A stretch of DNA of 64,000 bases from Glandiceps talaboti (lineage: Eukaryota > Hemichordata > Enteropneusta > Spengelidae), in NCBI RefSeq assembly GCF_964340395.1, contig NC_135556.1:18160001-18224000 (forward strand), in the 5' to 3' direction. The notes beneath the pieces are model-generated. The model made no database searches and was not told where the DNA came from. It saw only the letters and a program-made list of their open reading frames with translations. The translations under genes were made by a program, and so were the position numbers. This document shows, piece after piece, positions 2,542 through 62,200 of the stretch. The first letter of the stretch is position 1. Each line of letters opens with the position of its first letter.

Positions 2542-4062
2542 CTTGTAGAAGTATTCTGACTTGACGGGACAGAAGCGATATCCTTCCTTCACACCCTCAT
2601 GACGACGCAGAAAAGACCCTGTGGCTACTCTTCTAGTTACAAACTCCAATGGAATCATATCACAGTTGATACCAATGAAGGCTGTATCTGTATGTTGTTT
2701 GATGAAATGGCTTTTAATTCCTGAAAAGGAAACGAAAAGGAAAAATATCTAGATGACAACACTTCTAAAGTTGTTGTGTTGAGAGGGACAGTCTCATAGC
2801 TTATTTTATGGTCAACTACACTGACAGAGATGGAAGTAAATGGGTGACATTCCCACTAGTCTAGTGCTATCCATGGCATCAAATCTCAAGGTCTCTCTTT
2901 ACCTATCAGAGATATAGGTGATCAGACAACAGACTTGGGTCAGAAACCACTCCACATTCTAAACACCAGTGTGGGTCTATAGGGTCTGACTGATTGAATG
3001 GAATTCCTTACCTGCATTGTTCAGAAGTTCAAAAAGTTTACTTGTAGTAGCTGTGGATATGGCAGCTTTGCCTTTCATGTCATGGGCTCTGGCTCCATCA
3101 CCAGCCGTGATTCTGTCTTTGGACTGTAGTAGGACTTGATTATTGGGAAGTTCATAGACAATTTTAGTCTTGCCTTCAATGAGAGCTTTTCCAGGTGTGA
3201 TGTCTAGAGAAATCAATCAATTGATCCAAGGTCAATGAAACAAGCATTTCAAACTCTCTTAAACCATTGATAATGACTGTCTAGGAATTTTCCTTTCAAT
3301 TTTCAGCATTACAAAAGGGATGAAATGTGTATACATTTAAGGAACTGTTGCAAGTGAAGTTCATATGCCTGTCTGTCTGTGTCTGCATGTATGTATGTAT
3401 GTATGTATGTATGTATGTATGTATGTATGTATGTATGTATGTATGTATGTATGTATGTATGTATGTATGTATGTATGTATGCATGCATGCATATCAGTCT
3501 GATATAATTTGATAACTTCTTAGATCAGTAAATGCACATAGTTTTTAGTTTAAGATTAACATTTCACAACATACGAATATCTATCACCACGTCCATGCTT
3601 AACCCATGGAAGTGTCACAGTGGGTGATATTTCCATTGTTATTTAAACCAAATTTGCTTAGAAATAATAGCATTGGATATAAAAAGGCTACCACATATTG
3701 CAATGTGTTTTAATATCATACTATGACTGGGGTACTGTGTGCCCGGGGCATCTCACATGGTACAGCAAGCATGTGAATGAGAGATTTCCTTTCTGATTAT
3801 ACGTACCCTTGCCTAGAATCCAAGCAATGGGAAAATTTTGAATTTTGTTTTCCCCCTCAAGCTTGCCTTTATCTGCTCTCCATGCACGAGTCCACTTACT
3901 AGTTAATAAAGAATGGCCTAGCACACCACTCTTGTTTTTTACACTCTCTGCTGTATAAAATTTACTATTAAAGAGTCAAAAAAGCGCAATGAAATATTAC
4001 ACTAATGTATAAATTTAAATTTCACACTAGCTGTTATCAAGCTACAACTTCCTACCTGACAT
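2542..4062 (-). CDS. PAICS: PAICS, bifunctional SAICAR synthetase / AIR carboxylase (5' part only)
   Basis: Three coding exons on the minus strand, all with GT-AG junctions: 4062-4056 (only 7 coding nt, ATG TCA G), 3203-3012 and 2720-2542. The phases join into one 126-aa frame. It begins [20 protein letters not shown] and continues with [19 protein letters not shown], then [17 protein letters not shown] and GVKEGYRF. These match the N-terminal SAICAR synthetase domain of animal PAICS, including the GKT and SKDRITAGD nucleotide/substrate loops. In animals the enzyme couples CAIR to aspartate and also carboxylates AIR, in the cytosolic purine pathway. The remaining SAICAR synthetase part and the AIR carboxylase domain lie off the left edge. 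The gene is divergent from PPAT, the pathway's first enzyme. Identification is secure; the donor at 2542 is inferred from phase and homology. Confidence 0.95.
3385..3490. repeat. (ATGT)n microsatellite in PAICS intron 1
   Basis: About 25 uninterrupted tetranucleotide units, open on both strands (translates as YVCM or HTYI repeats). It is not coding. Confidence 0.95.
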
Positions 4063-4932: not shown

Positions 4933-7900
4933 ATGGCTGACTGTGGAGAAAGTGAACTCGATGGTTTGCAGGAAGCCTGTGGTATATTTGGTGTTGTTGC
5001 TTGTGGTGAATGGCCAACACAGTTAGATGTGGCTCACGTTATTACGCTAGGTTTGGTTGCTTTGCAACATCGGTAAGTATAATCACATGAAATGGAGAAC
5101 ACAACTGTTTTTGTTTGATGACCTTTTCGCTCGAATATTATACATGTGTGTAACGCGTCGTCAGTAACTTAGTAAGCTACTACTCGTAACAGACCGTATA
5201 TGTTATCACTATCAGAAACCAAGTTCAGCAGCAATAACAAAAGGTAACAAAACTAGTAATGAGATCAGATGAAAGTCAAAGTTTGGTCTATTAACTTCTA
5301 ATATTTATATTGTAATTACTTGAAAGCGTGGTTGGTAACAAAAAGTGCTCAAACTCTCCCCCACGATGTTCCTTTCCTTGAGAGGGTGATTTATTTTTTG
5401 AACGTGTATTGGTGAAGCTGCTTTTAATATTGTTGTCATGTTTGGTGACGTGCCTCATTCACATCCTCTGGCCTTAGAATTTGTCATTAAAAAAGCAGAA
5501 CAACAGAAGTCGTAAATGTGTTCATTCAATAGGACTTAATTAGCGTGTGATGATATAAACAGTCTGTTAACAGTGTAAAAATAAAATATGGCCAATATGT
5601 TTTCATAGTTGTTAACCTTCATTTTAACAACTTATTTGAAGCAGTACAATCAGTCAGTAATATCGATAAAAAAAACCCACAAAAATACAATTTATTACAT
5701 GTAAGCTTACCACAAAGATATTGCAGTATTCTTGAAGAATCTCCAGATCATGCTTCCATACTACCATATTTTAACACAATTTCCTTTTGTAACAATAAAA
5801 TTCTAAATTTTTGTTTAGCTTCATTAATTCACACAACCATGGTTATACAACAGTGCTACATAATGATAGATTCTTGCTGAAAAAAGGAGAACTGGTTATT
5901 TGGCATAAATGTGAACTTGGGAAGTTTCATAAAATCTGACAGCCCACTTCAAAATACCCCACTAATGTTGTTTTTTTTATCATAGGAGAGGTTTAATAGT
6001 TCAGATAAGGCATGCATATTTTATTAAACCTCAGCAGTGATTTGAAGAAAAAGTCTTGCGTTTTTAAAAAAAGTAACCAACAGTATTTTATTCATTGTAT
6101 TGATTTTCTTTAAAGTCCTCAGCTGGCCCAGCTCAAAGGTGTACTTGTTAAATATGCAAATCAATCAATGTATTGTTCACGAGACAAAGACTCCAGGTTT
6201 AAATTTAGTATTGTTCAGGAAGTTTGAGATTCGGTTGCAGACTACTGGATACTAACAGCCATTTAAAAAAAGTACTCCATCAAACAAAGTATTGTTTTCC
6301 TTTACTTTGAATGAGAAACTGATAATGCTGTGTTCCCATAGTAACCATGATGTTTGGGGTATCTGCTTTGTATGCCTGTCAATAGCTTAGAAAGGTGATA
6401 ATGGGGACACCGAAATAAGAATAGTGCAAAGAAATTAAAATGTTGCACAGACAATTCATGTTTAAAGTGAAGGATTACTTAAATCATAGACCCTACACAA
6501 AAATTAAGTTCAGTGAATATTGTTTTCTCCAAAAAATGATGTTTGGTATAGTATTGCAATGATCGACTTTCTCATGTTTACGTGTATTATGTGATATTTG
6601 GAGGACCAGGGTGAAAGCCAGTCAAATCATAGACAGTGGAGGGGAGACCCTCCACTGTCTATGGTCAAATTTATATCATGCTTGAACTCCCAATAACCAG
6701 TTTTACGTCATGTCATGTTTAGCCCTTATCGGCACTCCCTGGTCTTTTTGTGTCTGTGAAGTGGTAACTGATAGGGTGGTTAAAAATGTATATTTACAGA
6801 CTACCCGTATAGAACCCTGAGTTCATTCCAGAGTCATTTTCTGCCTATCAGCCTTTTTTTGCAGCTAAATTTTAATCCTAAAAATGGCCTTTAAAAACAT
6901 GATACATCATGTAAGGCTTTAGAACCATGGATGTTGGAGAGAGACGTTGTCGATGGTACAATTCACTGTCTATGGTCAAATTTATATCATGCTTGAACTC
7001 CCAATAACCAGTTTTACGTCATGTCATGTTTAGCCCTTATCGGCACTCCCTGGTCTTTTTGTGTCTGTGAAGTGGTAACTGATAGGGTGGTTAAAAATGT
7101 ATATTTACAGACTACCCGTATAGAACCCTGAGTTCATTCCAGAGTCATTTTCTGCCTATCAGCCTTTTTTTGCAGCTAAATTTTAATCCTAAAAATGGCT
7201 TTTAAAAACATGATACATCATGTAAGGCTTTAGAACCATGGATGTTGGAGAGAGACGTTGTCGATGGTACAATTCACTATTCCTTCAAATGTGTTGCATG
7301 GCTTCGTATTCACAAATTAGGATGGAGTCAGTTTACTGGCTGAACCTATTACTACTATTCATAGCTGCATATTCAACCAGTAGAAAGACTAATGAGAATG
7401 AAAATCGTAACTTTTTATTTTTATTTTTAGACTTCCATATCGTTTAAATAAAAGTGAAATGTTTTTAAAGGAAAGAATATCATTTTCACAATTCATGAGT
7501 CTGAGCATAGATGTATTACATTTACTGTTCACTAATACAACCATGATTGGTGTCATTATAAAAGCACTAACTTCTTACAGATCTTGGGAATGATTTCAGC
7601 CTTGTTCACAAGGACATGTATTGTCAGGGGGGGGTGGGGGGTCACCTTTTTATGCTTGTGACTTTGTCCTTGTTTAAAAAGAAAGCAGGCAAAACTTGAA
7701 ACCAAATATTTCTTTATCAAAAACCGTGCAGTATGACTTTAACCGCAACTTACTAATTAATGACTTAATATAAATTAGTTATTTATTCACTTGCAGTGTG
7801 CCCTCTAACGATAGCCAAATTTTGTTGTTGTGAGTCAAAATGAGAAAAACTGGGATTTATTGTGAGTCACCACATAGTAAGAGATGGGGGAACACCAAAT

Positions 7901-9883
7901 TTTGGTGTCACTAGAAATTGTGTGTGTCAGTGGTGTGTCAAATTGGCTTCGAGGGCACACTGCTCACTTGAGTACAGTACTAAAATTTTAACCAGTACAC
8001 ACAACACACTTTTGATAAGTTGAGTGATTGCAATCAGTCTTGTTCACTCATGATACAGTGAACAAGACTGACATGTTTATACTCACATGTTCTCAAAGTT
8101 TTGATTCAACTTGCCCATACAAACAGTTTGACAAAAACTATTTGTTTCTCACCTACCGGGATAATCACCTTACTCTGTACTAGTGAAATTATAACATTTG
8201 TGAAATATGAATCTCAGAGGAACTGTGAGACATAGTTACAAATTATTATAAACTCATTACCATCGCGTCGATTGACACCAGGGATTGAGAGCGTTGTCAG
8301 GTCTATCCTGTATGACTTCTGGAAAAACATAGCCTAACAAACATAAGAGTGTGTCCCTATTGGCATACTAATTGGCCTGGTCTTCACTTTTTTAAAGTAG
8401 AAGACTACATTGGAAAAATTGAAAATATGCTCGAAATTTCCAGTTTCATTATCAAATTCTATATCAGAAATATTCATCAATTCATTCATCAAAGTAATTT
8501 TTTTTTTCATAGGGGTCAAGAAAGTGCTGGGATTATCACAAGTCTGGGAGTTAACACCAAGAAGTTTTACAAACACAAGGGAATGGGACTAGTCAATGCT
8601 ATATTTACTGAGGACCATCTGGCCAAGCTGAAAGGCAATCTTGGAATAGGCCACACTAGGTATTCAACAGCTGGTAGTTCAGAACTGACAAATTGTCAGC
8701 CATTTGATGTCGATACAATCCATGGACGAATTGCAGTCGCACATAACGGAGAGCTTGTCAACGCTTTACCGCTTCGGAAAAGGGTAACTACTTTTTGTCT
8801 ATTTGATGATATGAATGAGTGTATGCCCTTTATAGAATCAGGCATATTAAAACATTTTGTAATTATTCATAATTGGACTACAACCAGTTTATTTATATAG
8901 ATATGGCAACCAAGCGGTATAATAAAAGTAGGAACAATTCTGTGACTACTGTGAATTCATTGATTAATTTACAGGTCATAATCTTTGCTCAGTTTGAAGG
9001 TTATGTGTTCACTTCATTACAAATAGCATCACAGTTGTACATAAAGAACCATTTCTTGAACCGTAGCGACAACATTTGCCTTTTTCAACATGGTACAAAA
9101 TTGTCTAGCTAGGCTGGGGTATGCATGTGTGAAAACGATTTGTTCTTACATGTAGCTGCACTACAGGTGTTTCAAAGTATAAAGTATCTGGGTGTCACAA
9201 CTGATTGATCGTACAGACAATGCCATTGAGGAAAGTGTCTTGTAATAAATTGTATTTGTTCACAGAATACCACTGCCTGATGTCAAGGTGATAGACATAT
9301 ACAGCACTGTACACATTGTGTATTGTAAAGTCTGCACATGGGGTGCATAGCCTTCATGTGAAAGTTTTACAGGACTGACGTGACAGATTCACTGGCTATA
9401 AGTAGCGTCTGCCTGTGGCATTGTCACTCAATCATTGGTGCTGTGATAAAAGATCTACTTTCTTTATAGACTTTAAAATTTAGAGAAAATGGCAGGTCAC
9501 CGTAGGACCCAATAAAATATATGGTGCACACAAAGACTGTGTTCATAAAGTGTACTCTTGTACTTTGCAAAAAGAAAGTTGTACAAAGTACACTCTCAGC
9601 ATGATCTCACTTGATATACTTACTCCCAGTGTTGGTTTTAAACGTCAAATAAAGAAAAGATTACTTTTCTGTAGGCTATTGTGATTGTAGTGTCTTTGTT
9701 AGGATCAGGGGTAGTTTGATCAAGCCTACATAGACTAAGATGTCATCACCTATGGTGTAATGGTGCAGAACTATGTACCTTTATAAAATATATGGGGAAC
9801 TCGAGCAGATATTACCTAGGAGTAAGAACACTCACTCAAGAAAAGCAGCAACAAAAAAGCAAACAACAACAGCAACACACACG

Positions 9884-15570: not shown

Positions 15571-15596
15571 CATAGACCCTGGGTGGAGGGTCTGTG
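15571..15596. mobile_element. Micro-palindrome element, CATAGAC type
   Basis: 26 bp with arms CATAGACCCT and AGGGTCTGTG (9 of 10 pairing) around GGGTGG. Flanks TGCAAAC and TGCAGAC match at 6 of 7. Confidence 0.6.
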
Positions 15597-17266: not shown

Positions 17267-17297
17267 CATGGAGGTAGGACCACATCCTACCTCCATG
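17267..17297. mobile_element. Micro-palindrome element, CATGGAGG type
   Basis: 31 bp with 13-bp perfect arms (CATGGAGGTAGGA and its complement) around a 5-bp loop, flanked on both sides by GTTGAAG (17260-17266, 17298-17304). The same core and near-identical flanks recur at 30078-30121. Confidence 0.6.
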
Positions 17298-20740: not shown

Positions 20741-20769
20741 CATAGATCCTCGTTGGTGGAGGGGCTATG
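20741..20769. mobile_element. Micro-palindrome element, CATAGAC type (decayed)
   Basis: 29 bp from CATAGATCCT to AGGGGCTATG (8 of 10 pairing), with GGTGGAGGGG in the centre. Flanks ATTAAAC and AATAAAC match at 6 of 7. Confidence 0.5.
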
Positions 20770-21669: not shown

Positions 21670-21941
21670 CAGTGTGCCCTCTAAGCCAATTTGACGTGCC
21701 ACTGACGCACACAATTTCTAGTGATGCTCCAAAATTTGGTGTTTCCCTATCTCTTACTTTGTGGTGACCAGTGTGTCCTCTAGGCCAATTTGACATGCCA
21801 CTAATGCACACAATTTCAAATAACGCACCAAAATTTGGTTTTCCCTGATCCCTTACTATGTGGTGACGCCCAAGAAATGCCATTTTTTTTCTCATTTTTA
21901 CTCTCAACAACAAAATTTGGCTGTCATTAACGGGCACACTG
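21670..21941. mobile_element. Dimeric hAT-like MITE with perfect 8-bp target duplication
   Basis: Starts CAGTGTGCCCTCTAAGCC and ends ACGGGCACACTG. Both flanks are CCTGTCAG, a perfect 8-bp duplication. A second element start (CAGTGTGTCCTCTAGGCC) lies inside at 21769, so the unit is a head-to-tail dimer in which each half carries CCAAAATTTGG. It is non-coding; same family as 7794-7962 in the opposite orientation. Confidence 0.8.
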
Positions 21942-27010: not shown

Positions 27011-30000
27011 TTACCATGCCCACATATTTCCACCCATGTTACCAGCCAATACTTTCTCTATATCATCAGCTTGTTTGGGACATTTGGCAGTCAATACCTC
27101 AGCACCTTCATCAGTGATGAGTACATCATCTTCTATACGAATTCCTATGCCATGGTAGTCTTGAGGTGCATGGCTATCACCAAAGGGAATGTACACACCT
27201 GAGATAAAACAAAAAAACTTTCAGTAGGGTTCACATTGGTGACTTTCAAGGACTGTTCTACTAGGGGTGCCCCTATACTACCAGAGCAGCTCTAATTGGG
27301 GTACCCCATACACTAATACTAATTGATATAGCAGTTCTATTTGGGGTACCCCACACTCATAGAACAGTCTACCACAAGGATGCCAAGTGACTTTCTTGTT
27401 AAACTGATCAAGGAAGGTTTACTTGGAAGACTGTTCCACAATGGGAATTTTGACATTCTATGGTAAATCATTACAAAAATGTCATTTTCCAGGACTAAAC
27501 ATGAATTATTTCACATCTTTTAGGGACTTTGAAGGACTTTGAGATAGTACCCTGCTGGTGATGTATCAATGAATATTTACCTGGTTCTATAGTGATCACC
27601 ATACCGGGCTGTAACTTGATGTTCCTGGCAACTCTAGGAGTGTCATGGGTATCCATTCCTAGGTAGTGTCCAACATGATGAGGGCAGTATATACTGGCAT
27701 ACTGTAATCAAACAAACATTGACATCAAAATCATTCAAAAGAAACATTTTCCACTGAGACCATAGAACTTACTAGTTTAATTGTTACAACTACTATTTTC
27801 ATTTCATTATAAGGGGATTACCACTTCAGGAAATATAAATATTTTCATAAACTTTGGGTTCTGGAGTGTCATGTTATGATTTCACATCACATAAATTGTG
27901 TGTGACTGCCAAGAAACACTAAATTATAACTCTGTTTCACCTCTATTGTTCTTTCACTGGTCCATTGCATCATGGGACTTAGCAGACATATATATTTATT
28001 AGACTCCAAAGTGCTTATTACCTTCAGATAAATATTTGACTCTGTACTGAATATTTTGTGTCCTTAGTTTTTGTCATACTATTATATAACTCAGTTCAAT
28101 TTTCTCACATTTCAACTTTTCCCTATGATTGTATGGATTCCGTTAAAAAGTTATAAAGTCCATCTGTGTTTAATATGTTGCAACAATATTTGAAAAATTA
28201 TGTTTCAGCGAGGAGGCTACTATCTAGACCTCCAGTAAATAAACAACTTTGATTGTCTGAGTTGATATGTGACAATGTTCCTTACCTTTCTTCTTACATT
28301 TTCATCAAAACTCTTTGGAAGGATTCCAAGATCTTGGAGGTGTTGTCCGAACATTTTCAACATGGCATTGTAAATTTGATCCAACGTCATATTTGGCAGT
28401 GAGCACATTTTCAGACATTTCAGTTGGACATCTAAGACCATTTCATACAAAGTCCTTTGAGCGAGGCTAAATCTACCACTAACTGGCCACGTCCTGGTGA
28501 CATCACTGGCATATCCATGGTACTCGCAACCAGCGTCCATTAAAATCAATTCATCAGGTTTCACAACCTGGTTGTTGCTTATGTAATGCAAGGTATTGGC
28601 TCTGTTGCCACCAGCAACCACTGGCGGATATGCTAAGATTTCGGCACCGTGGACTCGGCACTCGTAATCAATTCGTGCATATAAATCAGATTCGTTGACT
28701 AGCGGTTTGGAATATTTCATCACATTTATGAAAGCTTGAGAGGCAATTGATGCTGATTTTCTCATTAGACATTGTTCTGCCGTAGATTTGATAACTCTCA
28801 TCTGATGCAGGGACTCTTCCAATGTCTTTATCGCACAGCCCTGTTTTCTTATCGGGTGAATCAAGTGCTGCATTATCTTGCTGTGAAATTCTGGATGAGC
28901 TGGTTTCAGGAAATCATACCATAAAACCAATTCTTTCCTTTCAGAGAATTGCACCAAATAGTCGCAAAGTTCACTGTTATTGTATGCGGTATCCATACCG
29001 ATAAAGTTGACAGCGCCCTCAACGCCACTTCTTGGCCCATCCCATAGCTCCCTGTGTGCATCTCTCTTTGGAACCAGAAGCGTTGCCTTGTGAGCCGGGA
29101 GAGGTTTCCCGGGAAGACTCTCTATGACCAATAAACTATCTGGTTCTTGGAATCCACAAAGATACAGGAAATCTGTGCTTTGCCGGAAAGGATACGGTAT
29201 TTCGTCTGTCATGAACATTTTAGGATGTGAAGGAACAACTACAACATGGTGCTTCTTTAACTCACTTTTGGTAGATGATTGACGAATTTCTGTCATTAAT
29301 TGTTTTCTACGGTTTGCATATTCTTCAGCAGTAATGCCAGGCGTGACTTCACCATACTTCATGAGATGTGGGTGAGTATATGGCGTTGGTTGTCCCAAAC
29401 TCCTTGTAGGAATACCTGGTTTACCATCCCTAGCCTTTAACTGACTCTGGATAGGTGGACCTATAATGCAAAAAAATAAATTAATCACATTCTTAGAAGG
29501 AAGATGATCGCAATTGTCATGAAAATCAGTTTTATAATTTAACTTTACACAATTCACATATTGAGCTTTAAACTTGTGTTTGTCAACATCAAGTAGGGCA
29601 TTCATTTGCTATACCAAGTGTATGAATAATTTTTCCATTTGGTACAAATTGTAGGAGCACTCCGAGCAGTTAAAATTAAGATTAAGGGGAAAAAACTGTT
29701 TTCACTGTTACAATGTTCTATTCATGCAGAATCTCTCTCTTACAATACAACTATGAGTCACATTACAAAAAAATCATATATTAAAGTTATTTAGCTATTC
29801 AGTCCAGCTTGCAGACGGAGTACGGGACTCGGTCCTGTGGACTGAAATGGAAGGGACATTGTCAGAATCGCGTTCTGACTGACTCCGTCTGCAAGAAGGA
29901 CATCCTTTCCATTCTTGCCATAGAATTCTTCAGGTATTGGGCTAGGGCTAGGCTTTATAATCGTGTTTCTTGTTTCTGTTGGCCCAATCATGGCCCAATA

Positions 30001-30360
30001 GATAATTAAACAAGTTTACTTGTCTATGGCAGCTTAAAATGTGTGTTGTAAACATGCCCTTTGAGATTTGGTTGAAACATGGAGGTATAAAAATAGAAGC
30101 TTCTATTTTTATACCTCCATGGTTGAAATTACCGGTGAAGGTCGATAGATAGAAATTATTAGAATGAGTTACAGGTGTACATCTACAGAGCACAGGTGTG
30201 ATTTATAAATTCAAAGATACATTTACTTACTTGAACTGTAGCAACGCCTATGTTGATATTCTTTCAAATTAGTACTACAAACTCTGCGCCCCCACGTTGT
30301 TACTACGGACGCTTTACATCCTCTGCTTCGTACTACGCAGGCAAAGCTTGAAGCTGCCAT
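27011..30360 (-). CDS. XPNPEP3: XPNPEP3, mitochondrial Xaa-Pro aminopeptidase 3
   Basis: Metallo-aminopeptidase of the M24B (aminopeptidase P) family that removes N-terminal residues before proline, in animals mainly in mitochondria. Four coding exons on the minus strand: 30360-30231, 29460-28286, 27701-27581 and 27198-27011. Phases are consistent and give 537 aa (human 507). The first about 45 residues are rich in Arg, Ser, Ala and Cys with no acidic cluster before residue 34, as in a mitochondrial presequence. The N-terminal aminopeptidase P domain includes [12 protein letters not shown] and ELWDGPRSG. The five metal ligands are all visible: Asp352 and Asp363 ([17 protein letters not shown]), His447 ([10 protein letters not shown]), Glu474 (TIEPG) and Glu498 (RIEDDV). 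The 1175-nt second exon carries most of the protein, unlike the many-exon human gene. It is divergent from ST13. Confidence 0.97.
27811..27990. repeat. Family A foldback arm in XPNPEP3 intron 3
   Basis: AAGGGGATTACCACTTCAGG, TTTTCATAAACTTTGGGTTC and CATCATGGGACTTA correspond in order to the arm of the element at 47-446. No inverted partner arm is seen. Confidence 0.65.
29798..29895. repeat. Interlocked inverted repeats in XPNPEP3 intron 1
   Basis: CTTGCAGACGGAGT (29808-29821) pairs with ACTCCGTCTGCAAG (29882-29895). TTCAGTCCA (29798-29806) pairs with TGGACTGAA (29838-29846), crossing the first pairing. GTCAGAA/TTCTGAC (29861-29879) forms an inner hairpin. It looks like a small foldback element; not a tRNA. 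Confidence 0.65.
30078..30121. mobile_element. Micro-palindrome element, CATGGAGG type, 44 bp perfect
   Basis: A perfect palindrome with 22-bp arms and no loop, starting CATGGAGGTATAAAAATAG, flanked on both sides by GTTGAAA (30071-30077, 30122-30128). It lies in XPNPEP3 intron 1, about 110 bp from exon 1. Confidence 0.65.
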
Positions 30361-30688: not shown

Positions 30689-52860
<22,172 letters not shown>

Positions 52861-59238: not shown

Positions 59239-62200
59239 TTAGAATGTGTAATCATCATCACCATGTTTGGAATCGGCAGCACGTCGTCCTTGGAAAAACT
59301 TGTCAGATTTATCCAGAGCTGTAGACTGTGAAATAAAAACAAATTAAGTACGTGAGACGGATGAGGTTGAAATTTTTCCCCTTTCTTGACAAAGTCTGAA
59401 AACAAGGAAGTGTGTAAATTAAATATTCAGTGGTTTTTAGTCAAGGAAGGAAAACAATTACAGTATTTGTATAAATGTACCCTGTCTTCAGGAGTGATGA
59501 TCGAGTGGTTCTCTGCAATGTCAGTTTGGGAATGACGGTACTGTTTCATTCACCATGCCAATAGGAAGGCTAGTATGAATGACCCAGAGTAGTACATTTT
59601 CTGTTCCTTTCTCTCTGTCTATGTTGAAAGAGTACCCACTGTTGTATAGCTAAAATGATGTTGGCTTGGTATTTCACTCATGGGACATTACATTTTTGAC
59701 ACAGAGATAGACACATTTATACTCTAGACCATAGACCGTTGGTGTAGGGTCTATGTCTAGACTAACAATAACAGAGATACAATAAACACAGCGGGATACT
59801 TTGCCCAGTCACATTGAACACTGATAAGCATTGCTATTCTTTCACAGTGCAATAAAAACAGGCTTATCTAATGAAAACATTACACATGGACTTGATGATT
59901 TTGATGGGCTGCAATTGTTTATTTTCTAAATGATAATCAACATATCAACTTGACTACTTCTACATCCCCACTGTGCACGGCACCTATGTAATTGTTTCCT
60001 TTGCATTAGAAGTTGTCTGAGGGTGTGTATAATAAATGTCATCTATATGTTGCATGAGTGAAACACCAAGCCTACATCATTTTAGCTGTAAGTATTTCAT
60101 GTGTTGGTAATATGCTATTTACATGTGTTATAATAAGTTGTGTGAAACACTCATTCATTGAAAAAGTATAGTGTTTAATACTATGCAGAAAGGACCTTAG
60201 AGGGGAACTAAGTAACAGAAGAATATAATTTAACAAATTGAAAATCTTGAATCAAAGTCACCAGTAGGCTTTGAAATAAATATGTTTCCTTTTGTGCTAA
60301 AGATAAACATTTGAATAATTTTTGTAGATTAAAAAAAAGATCATTTTGGAATATGCAAAACATCTTTGGTGAAAAGGGAAAACTGGCTTTAAAAGATGAC
60401 ACAGGGCAATAAGTAACTGGTCTGACCCATTGATTTCACTAAACTTACCATCCCTTCAATTTATACTCATATGGTATCATCCTGATACTTAAATAAGGTG
60501 AGCAACACCACTGTGTCACAAAAAAAGGTGGAATTATTGCCAGGATAGTTTATCAATGTACCTTTAGAGATGAAAATAAGTAGGAGTGTAGCGCCATAAT
60601 CATGATTTAATGCAGATCACTTCTTGAAAGACTAAAAAGGGTTTAATTTTGGAATTAAGAAATTGAAGCGACTGACATATTTAAGAAGTTCAACGTAATA
60701 GTTTAGAACTCATGAAAGATAGAATATGAAATAGTTTAAGATATATAGCAAGAGGAGGGAGAAAGAAGAGACAGTTACCATGGAAACGATCTTCAATTCT
60801 GCAATGCCAGATGGAGAGATGAAGGAACAATTACTGATAATTCTAGATTTATCTTTTTTGAGAAAGTATGCTCAGGGAAAGAGTGCGATGAATAAACTAT
60901 TAAGAAGTCCAAACTTTTTAATCAGAAAAAGGAAAAGTTGTGAATACACAGATGTAGTGTTAGTTTTGTAAAAGAAGGATTTGTTGAAGAAAATACTTAC
61001 TGCAACTAATGCAATGCCTGCTGCCTTCAATGATGTTTTAGGTTTAGTGTTAAAATGCATGCTAATTTTACGAGCAACTGTCATCTGCATGTCTTTGTCT
61101 AGAGCTGTGTCATCCTGAAATATTCCAAAAATTAGTGGTCAGTATTCACAGTATGATTTTAAAGTCTACATGCACATACATTTATAAGAATTACAAAGAG
61201 AGAGAGAAGTGTTAATCAAAGGACAGGAAAAGGGAGACAGAGTTTAAATATTTACACTACAGATAAAACATAGGAACAAAAAAATGCCATAAATAATTCA
61301 GAAATTTGTTTGTTTTTTTTTATATTTAACAACTTAAATTTACAGTACAGTAGTAGAAAAACAATCAATAGATACACCAACACCTATACATCAAGTAAGA
61401 ATCACTCAAATAAAAGACTGAATAGTAAAAACAAAAGAATCACAATACTTGGAAATAGAGGGCAGTATATTTATACTCACAGCCACCCAGGCATGGTCCA
61501 ACACTTCATTTGCAGAGAATCTCTTCTCACCGTCCACTTCTAACATAGCACTGATCAATTCCTAATCAAAAATAAAATGTACATCATTTTAATAAAATTA
61601 TTGCAAATATGATTTCTTATCAATCTAATCCTTACATGTCTATCACTGTGATATTATTGCCTGTATTACAGTTTGACAACATTATGAACAGAAATAGTTA
61701 TGATTTTATACATATCAATGCAAATAATTTCACTCGAGATTATTTTGTGTAGATAATTTTTGGAAAAGCTTCATTCCCTGTTTTTCACATCTGGATAATT
61801 TGATCACATATTCATTTATTCCGGCACCTAACATATTCTAACAAATAATCCTCTTTTCGTAAAATCTCTTATAATTAGATTAATTTTGAACAAATAAAAA
61901 AATTTAAACAAATAAAATACCCATCAGACAGATGATCAGTTACACTTTTTTTTTAGATTGATGAGTAAGATTAAGATATGATTGTAATCTTTCAGTACTT
62001 TATAATACATTCTATCAACATTTATCCATAAGATTTCCAGCAATATCTTTTTTTATTCCATTTTTTTTCCTATTCATTTTAGGAAAGGATAATACTGACA
62101 ACTCCAAAAAATGATAATGTTAATATATTTTTTTAATCTAGAAACTTGTAAGTATTCAAATATTTATGATATTTGGGGAAGTGCATTTCCATGGATACAG

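Follow-up and report, generated by a model that had tools for sequence, protein, structure and literature searches.

Excision footprints of P-type transposons are known from flies. The cuts made by P transposase are staggered: one strand is severed at the end of the element, its partner 17 bp further in (PMC7776569). According to Table 1 of PMC2895639, the P excision junctions recovered in spn-A mutants run from the target duplication through at most 17 nt of one element end, an overlap or filler and at most 17 nt of the opposite end to the second copy of the duplication. We compared 44 of the 66 junctions of that table, dropping 20 with long microhomology and 2 in which one end was lost (the figure legend speaks of 68); their inserts have a median length of 30 bp and their outer perfect arms a median of 15 bp, and the inserts described below measure 21–44 bp. 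Another P-superfamily element of flies, 1360, makes a 7-bp duplication at the target GTTNAAC (PMC3276498). In this work we describe micro-palindromes of the hemichordate Glandiceps talaboti which, very probably, are excision footprints of P-superfamily DNA transposons, and the source genome seems to hold large numbers of them.

The window, by which we mean the whole stretch of 64,000 nucleotides that was analysed (contig NC_135556.1, positions 18,160,001 to 18,224,000), contains seven micro-palindromes of 21–44 bp bounded by 7-bp direct repeats, four with exact repeats and three with repeats matching at 6 of 7 positions. The original prediction took as its reference a 36-bp hairpin, which was confirmed: perfect arms of 16 bp with 4 nt between them occupy 6628..6663 (+ strand), and GTCAAAT stands on each side, the left target-site duplication at 6621..6627 (+) matching exactly the right one at 6664..6670 (+). 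In this footprint, 20 nt come from one end and 16 nt from the opposite end of an element of end family A, whose 36-bp terminal inverted repeat is known from full elements. The four further copies named in the prediction are all present, on the minus strand. Two belong to end family B, one at 15571..15596 (15 nt with one substitution, a C, then 10 nt; flanks TGCAAAC/TGCAGAC, 6/7) and one at 20741..20769 (18 nt with one substitution, a G, then 10 nt; flanks ATTAAAC/AATAAAC, 6/7). The copy at 59730..59755 has 18 nt and 8 nt of end family B2 between exact TCTAGAC flanks, and that at 38555..38575 is a family A footprint in which little of one end is left (15 nt and 6 nt; flanks GCCCTAA/GCCCTTA, 6/7). 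Two probable footprints, both on the plus strand and absent from the first list, define a second end family, C (CATGGAGGTA, the CATGGAGG family), which is represented by these two window copies and presumably also belongs to the P superfamily. One lies at 17267..17297 (CATGGAGGTAGGA; flanks GTTGAAG, exact) and the other, a variant with perfect 22-bp arms, at 30078..30121 (flanks GTTGAAA, exact).

Two less complete sequences lie near the reference site. At 6485..6498 (+) a one-ended remnant, CATAGACCCTACAC, follows CTTAAAT; its second end and duplication were not found. A possible decayed footprint of the CATAGACGTTGGAGAGAGAC family, whose flanks do not match, lies at 6926..6955 (+) and has a copy at 7237 through a tandem duplication; L003/L007 is a better-kept relative. 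Elsewhere in the window, a 272-bp sequence at 21670-21941, with CAGTGTGCCC inverted ends, an 8-bp repeat CCTGTCAG and a 99-bp internal tandem repeat, resembles a small hAT element. Host gene exons were recognized by Pfam for SAICAR synthetase (2464-2748, −), glutamine amidotransferase (8316-8900, +), aminopeptidase P (28220-29608, −) and a dynamin-type GTPase (42754-43848, −). The window gave no matches to Rfam at gathering scores and none in a tRNA scan.

Within the window, CATAGAC-N(4-30)-GTCTATG matches twice where 0.01 matches are expected. In a scan blind to the sequence of the repeat, 7 inserts with inverted ends proved to be framed by an exact 7-bp repeat, compared with a mean of 0.9 in 8 shuffles, and four of the seven start with CAT and end with ATG (6628, 17267, 30078 and 59730); the same scan also exceeded the shuffles for repeats of 6, 8 and 10 bp, much of that excess falling within tandem repeats. 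A looser test for CAT..ATG inserts, allowing the two 7-mers to differ at one position and with some simple-repeat stretches masked by hand, gave a weak excess (8 cases, 4 of them exact, against a shuffle mean of 3.95 and a largest value of 7 in 20 shuffles). The left copies of the seven window duplications agree with GTTNAAC at 27 of 42 positions (24 of 42 with the poorer copy of each), the expectation being 11.5, and this motif is the best of 64 palindromic 7-mer motifs. When full elements were sought, as inverted ends bordered by duplications and separated by no more than 6 kb, 52 pairs were found at 7 bp, against 28–39 in five shuffles; 8 of them begin with CA, the exact micro-palindromes themselves included, and no convincing P-type element was judged present in the window.

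The original prediction took the differing flanks around a common pair of ends as the mark of a transposon insertion that duplicates 7 bp of its target, and in this it was right; an excess of matching heptamers in the genome would, it stated, support insertion. The source genome (590 Mb in 47 contigs) contains CATAGAC-N(4-30)-GTCTATG at 3456 places, compared with 193 for the reversed control; these places include copies within larger repeats and tandem arrays and are thus not a count of independent scars. Among the first 50 of the 3456 places listed, which form the head of the listing, all on contig C1, and are not a random sample, the flanking 7-mers match at 6 or more of 7 positions in 36, with heptamers that differ between sites (7/7 in 24, 6/7 in 12, 5/7 in 4, 4/7 in 2, 3/7 in 2, 2/7 in 3 and 1/7 in 3); 14 of the 50 are thus without a 6/7 duplication. 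At the same listed places, no pair of heptamers reached 6/7 in any of seven shifted registers, and repeats of any other length between 4 and 11 bp matched at no more than one of the 50. A hAT origin was rejected, as hobo has 8-bp duplications and near-exact 8-bp repeats occur at none of the 50 listed genome sites. The commonest base in each column of the 36 genome duplications gives G, T, T, (T/A), A, A, C, i.e. GTTNAAC. A search for the family B arm, CATAGACCCTCCACC followed by the second end, gave 523 and 485 matches on the two strands (1008 in all), compared with 0 and 0 for the control. Viral and prokaryote sequence collections, each searched with one pattern, gave 0 matches.

The original prediction had proposed a search for longer, transposase-encoding elements with such ends, and the genome contains them. 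Three full elements contain a match to PF21787 (TNP-like RNase H, N-terminal): one of 9454 bp on contig C14 (24543531-24552984) with GTATAAT exact on both sides and perfect 36-bp inverted repeats, one of 9667 bp on C19 (16466610-16476276) with GTTACTC exact on both sides and perfect 36-bp inverted repeats, and one of 9179 bp on C24 (18349274-18358452) with GTTACAT exact on both sides and perfect 37-bp inverted repeats. Across the two main stretches in which they align, the C14 and C19 elements share 99.5-99.8% identity; their ends start with CATAGACAGTGGAGGGGAGA (family A), and the same arms are seen at window sites 6628 and 38555. The C24 element has ends starting with CATAGACCCTACACCAAC (family B2), the arm found at 59730. 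In families A and B2, the footprint arms are the first 15-20 nt of the inverted repeats of these three elements. A fourth element, of family B, is 4124 bp long (contig C5, L068 559-4682); its ends, which start with CATAGACCCTCCACCAAC and match the window arms at 15571 and 20741, form a perfect 19-bp repeat, agree with each other at 27 of the first 28 bp, and are flanked by CCCATAT/CCCATAC (6/7). No PF21787 match lies within it, the nearest being about 100 bp outside, and its end regions resemble those of the C24 element, with 84-88% identity over 104-155 bp. The terminal inverted repeats of all four elements (36, 36, 37 and 19 bp) begin with CATAGAC. From these sequence comparisons, footprints can be traced to elements directly for families A and B2, indirectly for family B, and by presumption for the CATGGAGG family (C).

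The C5 element also carries two long ORFs that match Exo_endo_phos and RVT_1, as if a non-LTR retrotransposon lay inside it. Both 9.5-kb P-type elements contain a footprint-like palindrome starting with CATAGACAAT (L070 7719-7754, L071 2277-2312), which is carried along with them and has flanks matching at about 5 of 7 positions.

PF21787 has 13 matches in the genome and none in 14 control genomes; within the 10 kb examined around the remaining matches, families A, B and B2 were not represented by any complete pair of ends. The ORFs of the C14 and C24 elements match this family with E values of 1.9e-23 and 2.2e-25. When a profile of five element ORFs was compared with the PDB, the sole hit at E up to 0.1 was the fly P transposase (6p5a, E 1.2e-9), which one ORF alone matched only weakly (E 0.04). 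The catalytic residues of the fly enzyme are D230, D303 and E531 (PMC8230255). Both catalytic D columns align, the first in a weak stretch, and the ORFs of C14 and C24 have these aspartates; only L074 and L075 showed the catalytic E motif, and the element ends of these two were not found. Searches of four single ORFs in Pfam gave only PF21787 and no match to a THAP domain or GTP-binding insertion, which may lie in other exons. The source elements combine a P-type transposase with an RNase H fold, a 7-bp duplication and terminal repeats that start with CAT, three features of P-superfamily transposons, whose target duplications measure 7 or 8 bp.

The length of the arms bears on the position of the cut. 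Family B arms were measured against the intact end in 84 rows, which are the 100 listed of the 1008 matches minus 14 with an amplified 24-bp core and 2 nested ones; 24 of the 84 are two rows each of 12 sites, so that 72 sites are represented. With reference ends of 28 nt and a pattern allowing 40, the arms stop at 15 nt in 36 rows, 16 nt in 18, 17 nt in 8 and 18 nt in 15, that is, at or below 18 nt in 77 of 84; the longer ones measure 19 nt (1 row), 20 nt (2) or 21 nt (4), and none goes further. A limit near 18 nt is predicted by staggered cleavage inside the element end. In the 22 arms that are intact through nt 18, the next base is that of the element end in 7 and a G in 10. At nt 16, C replaces A in 26 of the 84 rows and is followed by A in 23 of these, which may reflect a variant end not seen in any full element; these rows are scored as 15 nt, and the arm lengths of family B are therefore partly underestimated. 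For family A the cut may lie near 20 nt, judging from the single site 6628 (20 + 16 nt). The 20-nt arm at this site and the family B arms of 19–21 nt (7 of 84 rows) are longer than the 17 nt known from flies, and the 22-bp arms at 30078 would need a longer cut or palindromic filler.

The palindromes could themselves be mobile. The original prediction proposed that an inserted unit of only 21–36 bp might be a minimal transposase substrate, two bare ends fused, and such micro-transposons of 21–44 bp, moved by a transposase, would account for the shared ends and the 7-bp duplications, as well as for six cores that recur at 2–4 of the 72 family B sites each and, where fetched, lie in different flanks (L099/L100/L101, L102/L103 and L018/L061). 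A MITE or micro-transposon would have its whole internal sequence in common among many copies with different flanks; what we found is 63 distinct cores at the 72 family B sites among the rows listed, and 49 at the first 50 CATAGAC sites listed. The commonest core, in 14 of the 100 rows listed, has the same flanks each time, 96.8-100% identical over 624 bp, and is therefore one footprint that has become a passenger in an amplified repeat of at least 624 bp. Recurrence of a core in different flanks is expected of excision as well, since identical junctions recur among fly P excision products, up to 14 of one kind (PMC2895639). Moreover, the THAP domain of Galileo binds about 70 bp inside the element end (PMC3688188), a site absent from the micro-palindromes. 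Given the diversity of the cores, and because the most repeated one is a footprint within a larger amplified repeat, the micro-MITE idea was rejected, and we consider it very unlikely; both the tiny mobile unit and the minimal substrate give way to ends that belong to elements of about 4–9.7 kb, around cores that differ between sites.

Extreme internal deletion would make no use of tail joining: after excision of a P-type element, gap repair would have broken off and left only its tips, with the same ends and duplications; internally deleted P elements are known to arise through such interrupted repair. Interrupted copying should nevertheless give a broad range of lengths, whereas family B arms end at 15–21 nt. 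Spacers of 31–60 nt give 561 genome places against 72 for the control, to be compared with the 3456 against 193 for spacers of 4–30 nt, and 36 of the 50 longer places listed are units of two tandem arrays. We consider this explanation extremely improbable. We give practically no credence to the remaining possibility, that the palindromes arose by chance or belong to a dispersed hairpin motif, either carried along in a larger repeat or serving a regulatory function. One footprint has indeed spread within a larger repeat and some lie in tandem arrays, but the excess over expectation both in the window (0.01 expected) and in the genome (3456 versus 193, and 1008 versus 0) and the variation of the 7-bp duplications from site to site all speak against it.

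Excision footprints would arise as follows. A P-superfamily element would insert with duplication of 7 bp of the target, preferably at GTTNAAC, and its transposase would later excise it by cutting one strand at the end and the other about 18–20 nt inside the terminal inverted repeat. Each chromosome end would then keep a single-stranded tail, the first 18–20 nt of the terminal repeat, and since the two tails are identical in sequence, the joined product would be a short palindrome. Trimming, annealing, filling and joining of the tails by the cell would yield a product that is sometimes asymmetric or has a few added bases and is still framed by the 7-bp duplication. We infer excision itself, the exact cut position and the end-joining step from the structure of these products.

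Several structures associate footprints with further rearrangement. Two tandem copies of a 311-bp unit occupy 6653..7278 (+), with CACT at each junction; the unit begins within the right arm of the footprint at 6628, as if this scar had been a breakpoint. On contig C1, the tandem arrays at 12313471-12314703 and 31992178-31992310 have units composed of a footprint-like core and a short spacer, with periods of about 35–37 bp, the spacer of the latter array being the 7-mer CGTGAAC/CATGAAC. These arrays of footprint-like cores suggest that scars can seed minisatellites. At L085 (4940-5011), a 72-bp complex insert with nested copies of end sequences lies between exact ACTGTAC repeats, like a product of multiple rounds of templated repair. 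We propose only tentatively, and rather doubt, that P-type scars are a lasting source of palindromes, that a scar together with one duplication expands into arrays, that breaks at scars start tandem duplications, and that the element thus shapes the genome mainly through its leftovers.

Among the open-licence papers searched we found no account of such genome-wide P footprints, which cannot prove that there is none, and no occurrence of any of six arm strings. Hundreds to thousands of recognizable P-type scars make a genome a natural archive of repair junctions, in which each independent scar would record one transposition and one germ-line break repair, with its overlap, filler and trimming; such repair is otherwise studied with reporter constructs in flies. 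Scars would allow departures to be counted, not residents, and would show, outside flies and fish, where P-superfamily elements are cut and which targets they prefer. They also explain to annotators a class of tiny palindromes that can be mistaken for hairpins or MITEs.

The hemichordate elements and their footprints can be placed among the described P-superfamily systems. The terminal repeat of zebrafish Pdre2/THAP9 also begins with CATA (CATACCTGTCAAC), but the zebrafish element has an 8-bp duplication, a 13-bp terminal repeat and separate subterminal repeats (PMC10983969). Galileo of Drosophila shares a mostly 7-bp duplication and a palindromic target; it differs by its consensus, GTATTAC, and by its long terminal repeats, compared with 36–37 bp here (PMC4168063). 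1360 of Drosophila has in common with the elements here the 7-bp duplication and the target GTTNAAC (PMC3276498). With P of D. melanogaster the likeness concerns the footprint itself: the junctions of PMC2895639 likewise consist of the duplication, no more than one overhang of each repeat with overlap or filler between them, and the duplication, the ends likewise begin with CAT, and perfect palindromes form if the tail ends anneal. In contrast, the fly duplication is 8 bp long and the tails 17 nt, versus 7 bp and probably about 18–20 nt here, and the fly junctions are laboratory events in repair-mutant flies, whereas the hemichordate sites are genomic.
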